Source: an uncultured bacterium
Lineage (GTDB): Bacteria > Oederibacteriota > PGYV01 > Palsa-1178
Assembly: GCA_937889595.1 (NCBI GenBank)
Contig: CALAOR010000078.1
Location: 124,001-188,000 of the forward strand
DNA: 64,000 bases
Reading direction: 5' to 3'
Part shown: positions 48,243-55,982 of the stretch, in pieces
How positions within the stretch are numbered: the first letter of the stretch is position 1
Layout of the letters: the number at the start of each line of letters is the position of its first letter
Program-made: the position numbers and the translations under genes
The notes under the pieces: generated by a model
The model's input: only the letters and a program-made list of their open reading frames with translations
Databases searched by the model: none
What the model was told of the DNA's origin: nothing

Positions 48243-49478
48243 TTATTCGTTCTTGACTTCTTTTACTATGCATTCAAGATCCATTGCCTGCTGCGCGCCT
48301 GTTGCCATGTTTTTCAGCGCGTAACTGCCTGTTTTTATCTCATTCTCACCTATTATAACCACAAACCTTGATTTTTTTGATTCTGCTTCCCTGAACTGGG
48401 ATTTAAAACTGTTGCCTTCATAGCTCATGGCTGCTTTTACGCCCTGCGCCCTTAACTTATTCAGGAGGTCAAAGCCTTCATGCAGGTATGCTTTATCAGC
48501 AACCACAAAAACATCCGGCCCGGCTGCGTCAATTATCCTTCCTTCGGCTGTCAAAACCTCCGCCATTCTTTCCATACCGAGCGCGAACCCGGTTGCGGGT
48601 GTTTTCTTCCCGCCCAGTTCCTCCACCAGGTTGTCATACCTTCCGCCCGCAAGTATTGTGTTCTGCTGGGGCCCAAGCTTGTCGGTTGTGAATTCAAAAA
48701 CAGTACCCGTGTAGTAATCAAGCCCCCTTACCATTGTGGGGGTCTCAACGTACGCCGTGTATGAGGCCACGAGCATTTCCTTTACTTTTGAGTAATGTTC
48801 CGCCGCCTCCGGCTTTAAATTCTGCGTTATAAGCGGCGCGTCCATAACAGCTTTTTTGCACGTTTCGTTCTTGCAGTCAAGTACGCGTATGGGTGCGCGC
48901 TCAAGCTTGTTTAAACAGTCCCCGCACAGGCCGGCCCTTTTTGTTTCCAGGAACGTTTTCAGTTTTTCATAATACCCGTCTTCCGCGGCAAGGCAGTTGA
49001 TGTGAAGGACGCTGCCTGTAACCCCTATGGCCGCGATTATGTCGGCTGCCATGCGTATCACTTCCGCGTCCTTATACGGGGTGGCGTCCCCGAAAGCTTC
49101 CACGCCTATCTGGAAAAATTCCCTGTACCGCCCGGCCTGCGGACGCTCATACCTGAACATCTGTCCCAGATAATACAGATTTGACTTTGGGCCCATATTA
49201 TTTTCTATATATGCCCTGACAACTCCAGCCGTGCCCTCGGGCCTGAGCACTATGTGCCTTCCTTTTTTGTCCTTAAAATCATACATTTCTTTCATGACTA
49301 TGTCGGAGCCTTCGCCTATGCCGCGGACAAAAAGCCCTATTTCCTCTATTGTCGGGGTGATTATCAGCCGGTAATCGTACAACTTAAAAATACCGGATGA
49401 TTTTATTATGATGTGTTCCCACACTGGCGTTATTTCCGGCACCACATCCTTGACCCCGCGCAGGCGCTGGTATTTCAT
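48243..49478 (-). CDS. hisS: Histidyl-tRNA synthetase
   Basis: The 411-residue class II synthetase has RGVKDVVPEITPVWEHI, LRPEGTAGVVRAYIEN, the His-specific VRGLDYYTGTVFEF and AGGRYDNLVEELGG. The anticodon-binding domain is at the end. It starts one base after the stop of the large lipoprotein gene, so the two are coupled. Confidence 0.97.
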   Translation of the reverse strand: MKYQRLRGVKDVVPEITPVWEHIIIKSSGIFKLYDYRLIITPTIEEIGLFVRGIGEGSDIVMKEMYDFKDKKGRHIVLRPEGTAGVVRAYIENNMGPKSNLYYLGQMFRYERPQAGRYREFFQIGVEAFGDATPYKDAEVIRMAADIIAAIGVTGSVLHINCLAAEDGYYEKLKTFLETKRAGLCGDCLNKLERAPIRVLDCKNETCKKAVMDAPLITQNLKPEAAEHYSKVKEMLVASYTAYVETPTMVRGLDYYTGTVFEFTTDKLGPQQNTILAGGRYDNLVEELGGKKTPATGFALGMERMAEVLTAEGRIIDAAGPDVFVVADKAYLHEGFDLLNKLRAQGVKAAMSYEGNSFKSQFREAESKKSRFVVIIGENEIKTGSYALKNMATGAQQAMDLECIVKEVKNE

Positions 49479-49479
49479 G

Positions 49480-51822
49480 TTATTCGCCCGTTACTTTTTT
49501 CAGTAATACGGGATTGTCTTTTCCAGCCTGCATGAGGTAGTACTCCTTGGCGGAATCCCCGTTTGCGTCAAAAGAAAACATTCCCGTGGCGCCCGGGTGG
49601 TTTTTTATCAATGCCAGCGCATCCCTGAAACTCTCGCGCGATGTGATTGGTTTGTCCAGGACCATACACGCCATCTTTAACGCGTCATATGAGGCTGCGG
49701 CTATCACTTCGGGGGTATTTGCGTATTTATCCCTGTATTTTCTCACGAATTCCGACACAACCGGGTCTGTGTCTTCAGGGTAAAACTCCAGGGGGAATAT
49801 AATGCCGTCCACGTTTTCCTTAAAGTTGGCGATATACCCGGACGACATGGCCGAGCTGCCGAAAACCGGAAGATCAAAATCATAAAACTTCAGCTGGTCC
49901 TTTATCAGTACCATTTTCCTGTCGGTCGCGGGTATGTATAAAGCGTCTATTATTATCGGGTTCTTTTTCGGGTCCTTTACTTTCCTGTAGTCCACGGTTA
50001 TCTCGTCTAAAACCGCTTCATCTTTGACCGATATGGCCTGCAGCGTTATCCTGAACTTGAAATAATCATCTTCAGTAAAGTTATAAACTATGCTTGAGTT
50101 TCCTTTTGAATCAGCCGTCATTTCAGGCATAAAGTTGGCGTATATGGTATTGGCTTTTTCTTCCGTGATCCTGCCCCATACCAGGACATCAGCGTTCTGT
50201 TTGGACGCTATGTTCAGCGCGATTTCCCTGTCCAGATCCTCAGCCTCAACACCCATTGAAGCCATGGTATCGTCCACGTTTTTCTGTTTTATAACCTCCG
50301 ACGCGCTTGATTTTGCCAGGGTATAACTTAATTTTTTTGTCATGTCGTCGTCTATCATAAGGCGCCTGACATCATCCCCACGGGGGGATAAGTGCACGAT
50401 ACAGAAATGAACTTTTTTCATCCTGGGGTCGGGCGTGGGTTTTGGTATGGCATAATCGTCCGGAGGTATTATGTTCATGTAATCAAACGCCTTGGCCAGC
50501 ATCCTTTTTCCCGCCTCCTCCATCTCGTCGTCAAGCTTCATTTTTTCCGTCGCGCGCTTTTCTTTCAGCAGTATCGTATTTATGCCCCCTAAAAGCACCA
50601 TCTGTTCCTGAAAGTCGTTTACCGCCGGGTCATATGAGATCTGCCTGACCATATTTCCGCCGGAACTTTTTATTTTTTCCGCGAATGAGTCGTTTAATAT
50701 TTTCCCGTATGCGTTATCAGAGTATAACGCGGCTATATTCTTATAAGCGGTGTTTTCCATTATATACCTGGCTGTCGCGTACGCCTGGCCCTTCGCTGTG
50801 CCGCAGTTCCTGAAAAAGTACCGGCTTTTTCCCGTCAAGTCGGGCTGTGCCGCAGTGGATGAAATAAGGGCCGTATTATACCTGTCCATTATGGGGGTGA
50901 TGGTTTTTACTGTCTTTGAATAAAGCGGCCCGAGAAAAGCTATGACTCCGTCCGTTTCTATGGCTTTGGTGACCGCGGCTTCAAGTTTTGGGTTTTCTTC
51001 GTCTATGTAAACCAAGCTCAGGGCCAGGCCCGGTTCTTTTGCGCCATTATACTCGGCCAGGGCTATTTCCAACCCGCTTTTCACCAGGCTTCCTATATCC
51101 ATGGATTTGCCGGTGAGCGGTATGATAACACCTATCTTGCTGGCGTTGGTGGGCTTGACTTTTGCGGAAGCCCTGTAAATATCCGTTATCTCCTTGTAAA
51201 AAGCGCTGTCCCTGAAATCTATCAAAAACGCGTTCGCGTGGGTATTAAATTCATCAGGGTTATTTTCCGCGTAATCCAGCTTGCACAGGTAATACAGGGC
51301 GTATTCATCGACCATTTTGTGTATATGTTTCGCGTAGATTGCTTTTAATCCTTCCCTGTTCAGGGCCGATACCATAAAATTAAGCCTGTCCACCGCCACT
51401 GCCTCAAACTGCCTGAACTGGTGCCGTTTTTCAAGCAGCACCTTTATCCTTGCCTGTGCATTTACCGTGTCTGCTTTTTCCATGTTTATATCGAACAGCC
51501 TTGCTATGGAAAGATACCCAAAGTCCGTATCCGAATAATATTTTTCGTTGAACTCAAAATATTTCAGGGCGTCGGGATAATTCTTTTTGTTGTAATGGTA
51601 TTGTCCCGCCCAGAAAGCGCCCTTGGAGCGTTCGTCCGAATCCCTGCCGTCTTTGGCGAGCTTTTTCCAGGAGTCAAACTCTTCGTCGGAAACCTGCGCA
51701 TTTTTGTCCTTCACGGCCGCGTCCGCGGTCTTATTTACTTTTACGGTCACGCATCCAGAGAAAGCAAAAGCCAAAAATCCGCAAATGACGAACAATGACA
51801 AGAACTTAATTGTATTTTTCAT
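49480..51822 (-). CDS. LpoA-like lipoprotein with an inserted TolB-N/LpoB-like domain
   Basis: The 780-residue lipoprotein has FSGC with lipid-modified Cys24. Residues 64-215 form TPR-like helices (GAFWAGQYHYNKKNYPDALKY). Residues 228-412 are the first part of a type I periplasmic-binding fold (KIGVIIPLTGKSMDIGSLVKSG, VIAFLGPLYSKTV), which resumes at about 620-780. TPR plus this fold is the LpoA plan, an outer-membrane activator of class A penicillin-binding proteins. Residues 470-612 interrupt the fold with SEVIKQKNVDDTMASMGVEAE and IASKQNADVLVWGRI. These look like the TolB-amino-terminal/LpoB-type fold used by the other activator family. The LpoA match is moderate and the LpoB match is by motif pattern only; an ABC substrate-binding role remains possible. 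Confidence 0.7.
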   Translation of the reverse strand: MKNTIKFLSLFVICGFLAFAFSGCVTVKVNKTADAAVKDKNAQVSDEEFDSWKKLAKDGRDSDERSKGAFWAGQYHYNKKNYPDALKYFEFNEKYYSDTDFGYLSIARLFDINMEKADTVNAQARIKVLLEKRHQFRQFEAVAVDRLNFMVSALNREGLKAIYAKHIHKMVDEYALYYLCKLDYAENNPDEFNTHANAFLIDFRDSAFYKEITDIYRASAKVKPTNASKIGVIIPLTGKSMDIGSLVKSGLEIALAEYNGAKEPGLALSLVYIDEENPKLEAAVTKAIETDGVIAFLGPLYSKTVKTITPIMDRYNTALISSTAAQPDLTGKSRYFFRNCGTAKGQAYATARYIMENTAYKNIAALYSDNAYGKILNDSFAEKIKSSGGNMVRQISYDPAVNDFQEQMVLLGGINTILLKEKRATEKMKLDDEMEEAGKRMLAKAFDYMNIIPPDDYAIPKPTPDPRMKKVHFCIVHLSPRGDDVRRLMIDDDMTKKLSYTLAKSSASEVIKQKNVDDTMASMGVEAEDLDREIALNIASKQNADVLVWGRITEEKANTIYANFMPEMTADSKGNSSIVYNFTEDDYFKFRITLQAISVKDEAVLDEITVDYRKVKDPKKNPIIIDALYIPATDRKMVLIKDQLKFYDFDLPVFGSSAMSSGYIANFKENVDGIIFPLEFYPEDTDPVVSEFVRKYRDKYANTPEVIAAASYDALKMACMVLDKPITSRESFRDALALIKNHPGATGMFSFDANGDSAKEYYLMQAGKDNPVLLKKVTGE

Positions 51823-51995: not shown

Positions 51996-52946
51996 TTACT
52001 TTACCGCGTCCTGGTTCACCGTGACCTTGTACTTTTTCTTCAGCGCGCCGATCGCGTCATCAAACACCTGCTGCTGTTTCTTTTCCTTTATCATTTTGGT
52101 TATTTTGTCCTTTGAATCGTCGTACGAGTATTTTTTTCTCTCAAGCACCTTTATTATATGATAGCCGTAAACGGTCTTGACAGGCTGCGACACTTCGCCG
52201 TCGGCCATGGCAAAAGCTGTGTCTTCAAACTCCTGCACCATGACGCCCTTTGTAAAGGCCCCGAGGTTCCCGCCTTTTTCCTTGGTAGTAGCGTCCTCGG
52301 AGTATTTTTTCGCTATCTCGTCAAAAGACTCGCCGGAGAGTATCCTCTTGTGCAGCGAATCCGCGAGCTGTTTGCTCTTCACAAGTATGTGTTGGGCCTT
52401 TATTTCCACAAAATCGCCCGTGTGCGCCTCATAGTAAGCCTTCGCGTCTTTTTCGGAAACCTGCGATTTCTTTTCAATATTTTCCGCGTAGTAAACATGC
52501 GACAGTATGTCGTCAAAATCCCAGTCGTATTTCACCTTTAAGTCGGGCCTGTCGGCGTAACCGAGCGACCGCGCTTCCAGGGCCATCATTTTTTTATTTA
52601 CTATGAACTGGATGAATTCCTTTTCCTGGTCCTTTGTAAGCTTGTAATCGAATTTCTGGCTCATGTAGTCCGTGATAACCCTGTACTTTTCCTTCGTCAG
52701 CACGTACTGCCCGATTATGGCTATGGTCGCGTCGTCAAGTTTTCTTAAGTCTTCTCCGGCCAAAGGTTCGGCCGGCGTTGCCCGGTCTTCCCTGTCAGAT
52801 ACGCTTTTTTCAAAACCGGCTTTTTGCGCAGTTTCAGGCGGGGCAAGCATGGTGTTGTCAAGTTTCACTTCCGTGGTGGTGGTGTCGCACGAAACTGTAA
52901 GGACAGCCAGCGCCAGCGCGACAAATAATATCATGGTCTTTTTCAT
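51996..52946 (-). CDS. Parvulin-type peptidyl-prolyl isomerase lipoprotein
   Basis: The 316-residue protein has LTVSC with lipid-modified Cys20. A SurA-like helical region follows (residues 75-165). The parvulin domain is VEIKAQHILVKSKQLADSLHKRI ... GGNLGAFTKGVMVQEFEDTAFAM ... TVYGYHIIKVLERK. It should fold exported proteins in the periplasm, likely outer-membrane barrels. Anchoring to a membrane resembles PrsA more than soluble SurA. The 170 bases between it and the next gene hold nothing recognisable. Confidence 0.92.
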   Translation of the reverse strand: MKKTMILFVALALAVLTVSCDTTTTEVKLDNTMLAPPETAQKAGFEKSVSDREDRATPAEPLAGEDLRKLDDATIAIIGQYVLTKEKYRVITDYMSQKFDYKLTKDQEKEFIQFIVNKKMMALEARSLGYADRPDLKVKYDWDFDDILSHVYYAENIEKKSQVSEKDAKAYYEAHTGDFVEIKAQHILVKSKQLADSLHKRILSGESFDEIAKKYSEDATTKEKGGNLGAFTKGVMVQEFEDTAFAMADGEVSQPVKTVYGYHIIKVLERKKYSYDDSKDKITKMIKEKKQQQVFDDAIGALKKKYKVTVNQDAVK

Positions 52947-52960
52947 CTTTCACCTCTTTT

Positions 52961-54283
52961 TTAAGCTCTGTAATATTTTTTGTAATACATCAGCGGGTTT
53001 ACTTCCGTCTTGCATTCTTCTCCCACACTCATTTTCGCTATACTGCCGCTGCGCCCCGCTTCCTGCAGCCTCGTTATTATTTTATCGCGCAGGTCGTACG
53101 GGTTCATGGGGTTTATGTATACTTTTGTGCCGCCTTCAAATCCGGCCGGCGTGTTTACCCTGAGTTTTATAAGTATATGAAGCGGCATTACGTCTATGGA
53201 GTCTTTGGGGGTATAGTACCACTCTTCATTTGTCGCTATCTGGTTCGTGATGGCATTGTGCACGGCGTGGACTATATCCGAGAACCCGCGGAGTTCCTTT
53301 TCAGACATTTCATAGGGATATATTGCCTCGCTTTTTGAAAATATGCATAAAGTCGGGTACCTGTGGCCTATGTCCGAAAAAGCAATCGCGTGGTCGTTTT
53401 CCGCGATTACCAGGTTGAAATAAGACGCGAGGTTGGCTCCCATTTCATTGTATATGTTCGGGTTTTTCCTGATCAGATTTATCTCGCGCTCTATGGATAC
53501 GCCCCACTCGTCTATGGCAACAAGCTGTTTGTGCAGGTGGTCAAATGAGGCCCCTGCGGGCTTGAGCCAGTTCTGGAATATGGAAACGTACCTCGCGTAT
53601 TTGTTGTTGTTATAAATGTCCTCGAGACCCTTGATGGTGAATTTGAGGTACTGGTAATGCTCTTCGGGCGTCATCTCGCCGGAGTTGCAAAGCTGGCTGT
53701 CAAATTCCGCGTCCTTGATATAATGGCTCCTGGCCACTATAAGCTCGTGCCCGCCCGCGAAAAAAGCGTCCGACATGTCGAGTTTTTCCTGTTCTGGCAC
53801 CTGCGTCGGATCCTTGCCCAGGAGCTGCAACTTCATGTTTATGATGTGCATCACGTGCTCGTATCCCGCCTTGTCGGCAAGGTATTCTTCTTTTCTTTTT
53901 TTGACCTCATCCGGATACTGGTACCCGAAATTTTTCTTCCAGTATTCCATGGTCACTATTTCAAAAAGGTTCGGCACGCGCCTGAATTCAGCCAAGGTCT
54001 GGCTTAAGATGCCGGGTTTTAACCCTTTCAAGGTCATGTATTTTCCGCCTATCTTTACCAGTCGTTCCTTTTCAGGCGGCGTATTCTCGTATTTCCCCTC
54101 GCAGAAATTGCAGTAATCCTCTTTTTTCTTTTTTTCTATTTTTTTGGCTGTGGTAGGCACGTTGTTTGTAAGAGGTTTGCTCGCCCTCCCCGGAACCGTC
54201 CATACTTCGGTTCCTGTAAATGGATTTATCTGCTTTATGGTCCCGTCCTGCATCCTGATAAAAAACTGGTTATAATTTGACAT
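52961..54283 (-). CDS. GalT/HIT-like protein (DUF4921 type)
   Basis: The 440-residue cytoplasmic protein has a zinc-like CxxC (Cys58, Cys61 in YCNFCEGKY) and a histidine-triad-like active site DHLHKQLV (His249, His251, Gln253), as in galactose-1-phosphate uridylyltransferases. It is longer than GalT and has a distinct amino-terminus (QDGTIKQINPFTGTEVWTVPGRA). I associate it with the DUF4921 group, whose substrate is unknown. It may move a nucleotide onto a sugar phosphate. It lies 14 bases upstream of the parvulin gene in the same direction. Confidence 0.75.
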   Translation of the reverse strand: MSNYNQFFIRMQDGTIKQINPFTGTEVWTVPGRASKPLTNNVPTTAKKIEKKKKEDYCNFCEGKYENTPPEKERLVKIGGKYMTLKGLKPGILSQTLAEFRRVPNLFEIVTMEYWKKNFGYQYPDEVKKRKEEYLADKAGYEHVMHIINMKLQLLGKDPTQVPEQEKLDMSDAFFAGGHELIVARSHYIKDAEFDSQLCNSGEMTPEEHYQYLKFTIKGLEDIYNNNKYARYVSIFQNWLKPAGASFDHLHKQLVAIDEWGVSIEREINLIRKNPNIYNEMGANLASYFNLVIAENDHAIAFSDIGHRYPTLCIFSKSEAIYPYEMSEKELRGFSDIVHAVHNAITNQIATNEEWYYTPKDSIDVMPLHILIKLRVNTPAGFEGGTKVYINPMNPYDLRDKIITRLQEAGRSGSIAKMSVGEECKTEVNPLMYYKKYYRA

Positions 54284-54749: not shown

Positions 54750-55982
54750 TCACCCTCCGTACCTGTAATGCCTTATTATCTTCCACGTATTTAAAACATC
54801 CTCCTCGGCAGTATAATCCTGGTAAGAGTGGATGACGTAAGGCGTGCCTGAGTTGTTTTTCCTGTCCGATATTATGCCCGCATGGTACGTGCCTTTATAG
54901 TTCCATATCACCACGTCCCCCGGGGCCCATTCATGCAGGCTAAAGAAATCCGTTTTTACTGTAAGCTCGTCGGCGAACCTGTCGAAAAATATCATTATAT
55001 CGTTATATTGCCCCTCGATAAAATCCGGCTCGGTCTTCATCTTATCCCACATTATCCTGCCCGGATAAACCGTGAGGTTCCTGCGCATGTCCTCCATGAT
55101 AAACGCCTTTAGGTCAATGCCCGCGTAAAGGAACGCTTCAAATACCGCGTTAGTGCCGTAGAAACCGGCGTCCTTGGCTGTGGCTGCCGGTTCCGGATAG
55201 CTTGTCAGGAAAGCTGTACCGGCCCTGACCTCATTTTTTGCGCCTGTGAATATCAGCGCCGCTATTTGCGCGAGGCTTTCAGGCCCGGGAATTACCCTGT
55301 GCCTGTACGCGGCATACAGGAACTTGGCGGATTTTTCCGGCATGGGGTATCCGTTTTCATGGTATTTTAAGTACATCAGGTGCATGTGGGTCGGTGACCT
55401 TTTTTTGTAGGCGTTAAGGCCGGTCCTGCCCACGATTCCCAGCAGATCCCCGGGCTTTACCACCTGCCCCACATCCACGGCAGTACGCGACATGTGCGCG
55501 TAATAAAAAATACCTTTTGTGAAAGGGTCATAAACAAATACATAATTGCCGCCCCTTAACTGGCTTCCCGGCGTCCAGCCGGTATTTATGCCGGTCACGA
55601 CTCCCGGGCTTAAGGAGAGTATATTGACCGGCTTGCCCGTCCTGTCGTCCAAACAGTCCTGGTTTTTGTCCCTTATGAATATGTCCACAGCGGGATGGTC
55701 CTTATGCTGGTTGCCGTCAAAGAAATCATAACCTTTTACTATATAACCTTTGATATCCGCGTCGTATATGGCGTAGCCTTCAAGGGGGAAAACAGGGGTG
55801 TAAGCGGTTATTGTGCCTCCGTTATCTGTGAAATATTGGTCCAGCAGGGGCCGAAGATAACTTAATTTTGCCTGTGCTTTTTCCTTCGGTATACGGCAAT
55901 CCCTGACCGCAAGTTCCATGGCAAACCATTCCTGAGGAGGCGTTTGAGCAATGGCAATTGAACAGCATAAAATAAAAACCAT
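54750..55982 (-). CDS. M23 endopeptidase fused to a DUF1287 domain
   Basis: The protein is at least 410 residues and exported. The M23 metallopeptidase domain (about 75-205) has His96-x3-Asp100 (HPAVD) and His199-Met-His201 with a preceding YYAHMS, so its zinc site looks complete. The end (270-410) matches DUF1287, an NlpC/P60-like family: MEDMRRNLTVYPG, PGDVVIWNYKGTYHAGIISD and IIRHYRY. The DUF1287 Cys motif CTD reads TNA (277-279), so that half probably lost catalysis. The first ATG (55982) gives a signal peptide with no basic residues. The GGGAGG ribosome site at 56021-56016 sits 33 bases further upstream, beside ATA (56012) and ATC (56009) codons, so the true start may be non-standard. 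Confidence 0.8.
   Translation of the reverse strand: MVFILCCSIAIAQTPPQEWFAMELAVRDCRIPKEKAQAKLSYLRPLLDQYFTDNGGTITAYTPVFPLEGYAIYDADIKGYIVKGYDFFDGNQHKDHPAVDIFIRDKNQDCLDDRTGKPVNILSLSPGVVTGINTGWTPGSQLRGGNYVFVYDPFTKGIFYYAHMSRTAVDVGQVVKPGDLLGIVGRTGLNAYKKRSPTHMHLMYLKYHENGYPMPEKSAKFLYAAYRHRVIPGPESLAQIAALIFTGAKNEVRAGTAFLTSYPEPAATAKDAGFYGTNAVFEAFLYAGIDLKAFIMEDMRRNLTVYPGRIMWDKMKTEPDFIEGQYNDIMIFFDRFADELTVKTDFFSLHEWAPGDVVIWNYKGTYHAGIISDRKNNSGTPYVIHSYQDYTAEEDVLNTWKIIRHYRYGG

Follow-up and report, generated by a model that had tools for sequence, protein, structure and literature searches.

The window, by which we mean the whole 64,000-nucleotide stretch of DNA analysed here (from an uncultured bacterium of the phylum Oederibacteriota), contains at positions 49480-51822 of the reverse strand an intact reading frame that runs from ATG to stop and codes for a protein of 780 amino acids. 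The protein opens with a signal peptide and lipobox ending in AFAFSGC (residues 1-24; 51751-51822, like all parts of this gene on the reverse strand), the cysteine of which, C24, is an invariant column in 17/17 homologues. This is followed by a CpoB/BamD-like TPR region (residues 40-222; 51157-51705): when a family profile was searched against PDB chains, this region matched CpoB (E 8e-12) and BamD (E 6e-9), and tol_pal_ybgF is matched over the TPR part by 14 of 17 family members. The remainder of the protein is dominated by a type I periplasmic-binding fold (Peripla_BP_6, 113 bits in Pfam), which is split in the sequence. Its first part, which spans lobe 1 and runs into lobe 2 (residues 225-415; 50578-51150), is supported by Peripla_BP_6 and LppC and by alignments to 3td9, LivJ and LpoA, while the second, comprising what remains of lobe 2 together with the closing elements (residues 620-770; 49513-49965), aligns to residues 203-354 of 3td9 (E 3.6e-21); Peripla_BP_6 and 3td9 put the two segments at 229-408 and ~624-772, and the family profile aligns to 3td9 and further amino-acid receptors over 227-409 and 624-772. 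Between them lie a linker without a family match, made up of a helical region and a proline-rich tail and delimited by the flanking profile boundaries (residues 416-466; 50425-50577), and an inserted domain of ~150 amino acids (residues 467-616; 49975-50424), which hhalign and Pfam matches in homologues place in the CsgG superfamily. The invariance of C24 and the matches to CpoB/BamD, Peripla_BP_6 and 3td9 thus bear out the lipobox, TPR helices and split binding fold of the original prediction, and the separate insertion that it had placed at 470-612 is a real domain, whose bounds we refine to about 467-616, after the linker.

LpoA (PF04348, LppC) is the outer-membrane activator of PBP1A, and LpoB (PF13036) that of PBP1B. 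LpoA has TPR-like helices at its N terminus, and after them comes a type I periplasmic-binding fold (PMC4111904). The protein at this locus shares that plan, as had been proposed: it has a lipoprotein signal, TPR-like helices and the binding fold, LppC scores above its cut-off (36.3 bits versus 28.8, with the best stretch, 222-398, covering only the first fold part), and hhalign aligns it to LpoA at 97% over the end of the TPR region and lobe 1. It differs from LpoA in that it carries an additional CsgG-superfamily domain, in that its TPR part matches CpoB/BamD, and in that its binding fold is better matched by amino-acid receptors, LpoA being absent from the best 60 PDB matches listed for the family profile. 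In addition, the genome lacks the PCB_OB domain (PCB_OB/ODD, the docking region of PBP1A).

The identity of the insert became apparent only at the level of profiles. As a single sequence, it retrieved nothing relevant from Pfam, PF13036 (LpoB) included, and gave an NCBIfam LpoB hit at E 0.015. A profile restricted to the order failed to find the superfamily in the PDB, whereas a phylum-wide profile built from an alignment of 28 homologues did so, its first two matches being LpoB (E 0.13) and PelC (5t0z, E 0.26). The inserts of individual homologues match the Pfam families FlgO, FlgT_M, LpoB and CsgG, with PF13036 being matched by 3 of the 28 (best E 4e-4). In an hhalign comparison with a set of eight CsgG-type proteins from this phylum, each of them matched by Pfam CsgG, the insert profile scored 67.6 (96.5%), its best profile match, and against stand-alone LpoB proteins it scored 34.8 (67%). 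By comparison, 100 column shuffles reached at most 18.3 and 20.7 against these two sets, respectively, and reversed profiles 11.5 and 15.6, while other domains of the same protein, used as decoys, scored 11-13; the shuffles and own-domain decoys rule out a chance motif resemblance. Set against single E. coli sequences, the profile gave 51% for LpoB, 13% for TolB, 3% for CsgG and 0.2% for LpoA, the negative control. The predicted structure of the insert (pLDDT 55) is a low-confidence model, whose top Foldseek matches fall mostly within the superfamily (FlgT, PelC, GNA1162, LpoB and CsgG are among the names) at E 0.007 or worse and a TM of about 0.3, which we take as agreement in kind and no more.

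The CsgG superfamily includes LpoB, TolB-N, FlgO/FlgT-M and PelC. Taken together, the profile scores, the controls and the single-sequence ranking make membership of this superfamily secure as a sequence-based assignment, and leave the label "LpoB" insecure and, we suggest, too specific, since CsgG-type domains are much closer. The idea of a TolB-N/LpoB-like insertion thus holds for the superfamily (67.6 versus shuffles of at most 18.3), and is not supported for LpoB in particular, given the closer CsgG-type proteins and the lack of a PF13036 match. The insert also differs from its relatives in context: LpoB, with which it shares a superfamily (hhalign 51-67%), is a stand-alone lipoprotein with one globular domain, and CsgG, FlgO, FlgT-M and PelC domains are stand-alone or occur in other settings, whereas this domain is nested within the periplasmic-binding fold of a 780-residue protein.

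The alignment to 3td9 locates the point of insertion. The first fold part stops at residue 197 of 3td9 and the second starts at 203, so that the insert takes the place of a five-residue turn (198-202) between one helix and one strand inside lobe 2. It follows that the insert does not separate the two lobes; from the usual topology of the fold, the turn would be expected to face away from the ligand cleft. Within the insert, residues 559-588 (50059-50148; NTIYANFMPEMTADSKGNSSIVYNFTEDDY) form an order-specific loop with ten invariant columns across 13 homologues of the order, and its position in the alignment is that of a long loop of CsgG, the first membrane hairpin of that protein. This shared position, together with low-confidence Foldseek matches that are mainly to the FlgT and PelC rings, raises the question of whether the domain drives the assembly of a ring or pore at the outer membrane, as in CsgG, PelC and FlgT. 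We consider such an oligomer very improbable, however, because the loop is missing from other families of the phylum that keep the domain, because there is no second loop of hairpin size, and because the domain is nested inside a large multidomain protein.

We then asked how widely this arrangement is conserved, using genomes that are mostly incomplete assemblies. All 13 of the other genomes of the order that were examined have a match, 12 of them full-length at 42-83% identity (L031 being 83% identical) and one ending at a contig edge, and many other families of the phylum have homologues at 21-27% identity, mostly full-length; a shorter group of 539-611 amino acids keeps the fold and the insert and lacks the TPR region. 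An HMM of the insert matches most members of the phylum, including five outside its training set (L018, L022, L024, L034 and L039), and in insert-bearing members the two parts of the fold lie 154-221 residues apart. The HMM was borderline in L027, L029 and L030 and gave no detection in L025 and L033, and L047 has no room for an insert between the fold parts. Outside the phylum, where the analysis covered 18 relatives, either the strongest or those available, the insert is absent from 18 of 18, with 4-76 residues between the fold parts and no HMM match. Most of the TPR and binding-fold proteins of other phyla (L086-L099 and L036) have the same order of TPR and fold, but they have just 4-53 residues between the fold parts and no insert. 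The protein therefore recurs in all 13 other genomes of the order that were examined and in most families of the phylum, and the insert in 0/18 relatives from outside it; the combination is real and ancient within the phylum. A recent fusion involving the genome's own LpoB homologue can be rejected, as that single sequence (on L054) is not matched in earnest by the profile of the insert, which moreover occurs across the whole phylum.

The solved folds closest to the binding fold are amino-acid ABC receptors of the LivJ/HAAT type (3td9 and 4gnr), which makes it necessary to weigh whether the protein is instead a ligand-sensing or substrate-binding lipoprotein that still has a small-molecule ligand, possibly other than an amino acid, with the insert as an accessory. 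In LIVBP, the residues that hydrogen-bond the ligand are S79, T102, Y202 and E226 (PMC13103812). The corresponding residues here are S302, A325, T633 and S657, so that one of the four (S79) is kept; the position of Y150 is likewise kept, and that of E226 is D in most other families. The model predicted for the binding fold has a pLDDT of 34.5. No transporter genes lie nearby; the only BPD_transp_2 permease found in the genome is on another contig, beside a sugar-type ABC ATPase, and no LivH/LivM-type permease for amino-acid transport was found in the genome. The loss of three of the four ligand-contacting residues and the sugar-type character of the sole permease make transport unlikely, and the sequence suggests that the fold has probably lost amino-acid binding, although the conservation of S79 and Y150 and the D at the E226 position in other families mean that some ligand may still bind. 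Unlike LivJ/HAAT proteins, moreover, this protein combines changed pocket residues with a lipid anchor and a TPR arm, lacks a partner permease, and carries an insert that, with the TPR region, would be unusual in a transport receptor. We therefore regard a receptor of this kind as unlikely. An ABC amino-acid-binding pocket with transporter genes next door, which would have spoken against the original prediction, was looked for, and what was found is a pocket with three of four residues changed and no adjacent transporter.

The neighbouring genes point to the cell envelope on one side only. Directly downstream, one base past the stop codon, lies hisS (48243-49478, reverse strand), a neighbour conserved across the phylum; its presence directly downstream of the composite gene in L001-L013 and L015-L026 implies a single old locus, and is uninformative with respect to envelope function. 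Upstream, the neighbour conserved by synteny in the order codes for a PpiC-type peptidyl-prolyl isomerase lipoprotein (51996-52946, reverse strand; Rotamase_3, 1.7e-28). In other families, the gene directly upstream, touching or nearly touching the composite gene, codes for a lipoprotein with DUF4398 and a peptidoglycan-binding OmpA domain (L015:524-1405, L017:3747-4676, L021:3750-4694 and L023:512-1438). That these neighbours are envelope proteins supports an envelope role for the composite protein. Further upstream in the window, beyond the PpiC gene, we noted a full-length DUF4921 protein (52961-54283, reverse strand; 602 bits), conserved in the order and distantly resembling galactose-1-phosphate uridylyltransferase, and a protein that joins Peptidase_M23 and DUF1287 domains (54750-55982, reverse strand), a possible cell-wall enzyme.

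Penicillin-binding proteins were then surveyed in the same genome, where one bifunctional class A enzyme (L052) was found, as the original prediction would lead one to expect, along with a 250-amino-acid frame containing only a glycosyltransferase (L053). The class A protein is matched by Transgly and Transpeptidase only, and profile searches found neither UB2H nor PCB_OB docking domains in it or elsewhere in the genome. In related genomes, a UB2H lead (L101 of G008) turned out on inspection to be an Mfd-type helicase, the other UB2H matches being in frames of 1074-1211 amino acids. The genome also codes for a stand-alone LpoB homologue of 200 amino acids (L054:1468-2067, reverse strand; PF13036, 1.4e-39), separate from the composite gene and adjoining a TPR lipoprotein of 400 amino acids (L054:3-1202, reverse strand). 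This LpoB homologue recurs across most of the order and in several families. Some families of the phylum show a large expansion of the LpoB/CsgG-superfamily domain, with up to 20 matches per genome, often in frames of 300-700 amino acids (G016, G035 and other f8/f9/f16 genomes).

These data bear on the proposal that the protein is a true composite activator, in which the fold acts as LpoA, the insert as LpoB, and a class A PBP is activated. An LppC score above cut-off, the presence of a class A PBP, and LpoB as the best PDB sequence match of the insert profile, if only at E 0.13, are consistent with it. Yet Lpo proteins and their docking domains, UB2H and PCB_OB, are reported to co-occur (Typas et al., PMC3060616), and neither domain was found here in the PBP or the genome, CsgG-type domains are closer to the insert, and an LpoB homologue is encoded separately; for these reasons a PBP-activator role is an extrapolation, and we judge the composite activator rather unlikely. 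Of the proposal, an LpoA-like plan with an LpoB-superfamily insert stands, and the insert's identity as LpoB is not supported. Similarly, activation of more than one synthase does not fit a genome in which a single bifunctional PBP was found, leaving no two cognate synthases to serve. In Pseudomonas, LpoP shows that unrelated domains are able to activate a PBP1B (PMC7267771), although LpoP too uses UB2H. By this example, the lack of LpoB proper leaves PBP activation by the composite lipoprotein possible.

On balance, we favour as the probable explanation a lipoprotein that acts as a scaffold or regulator in the envelope, belongs to the broad LpoA-like group of TPR and periplasmic-binding-fold proteins, and has a phylum-specific CsgG-type module. 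The protein is predicted to be an outer-membrane lipoprotein, assuming outer-membrane sorting, with the TPR arm following the lipid anchor. The binding fold would act as a protein-interaction or sensing module, most likely no longer an amino-acid receptor, and the CsgG-superfamily domain, carried on a turn of lobe 2, is predicted to face away from the cleft and may reach toward a periplasmic partner. A protein of this kind would probably have a structural or regulatory role, tying the outer membrane to peptidoglycan or to the envelope machinery, and one way in which it might do so is by activating the single class A PBP.

The papers searched contained no account of a periplasmic-binding fold with a CsgG-type domain nested inside it, nor one of an LpoA-LpoB-type composite. 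At the level of sequence, our analysis confirms the architecture: an LpoA-like lipoprotein with TPR helices and a binding fold, in a variant that occurs across the phylum and carries a CsgG-superfamily insert. A single locus conserved across the phylum, coding for a lipoprotein in which a CsgG-superfamily domain joins a TPR arm and a binding fold, provides a candidate outer-membrane regulator in an uncultured lineage. Were PBP activation to hold true, it would change the view of the age and spread of Lpo-type control. More speculatively, and in our estimate with a low probability, LpoA-type and LpoB-superfamily modules may have been fused into one outer-membrane protein that regulates the synthesis of peptidoglycan and docks on class A PBPs lacking the docking domains known from Gammaproteobacteria; Lpo-type control would then have arisen, or existed, far outside the Gammaproteobacteria.
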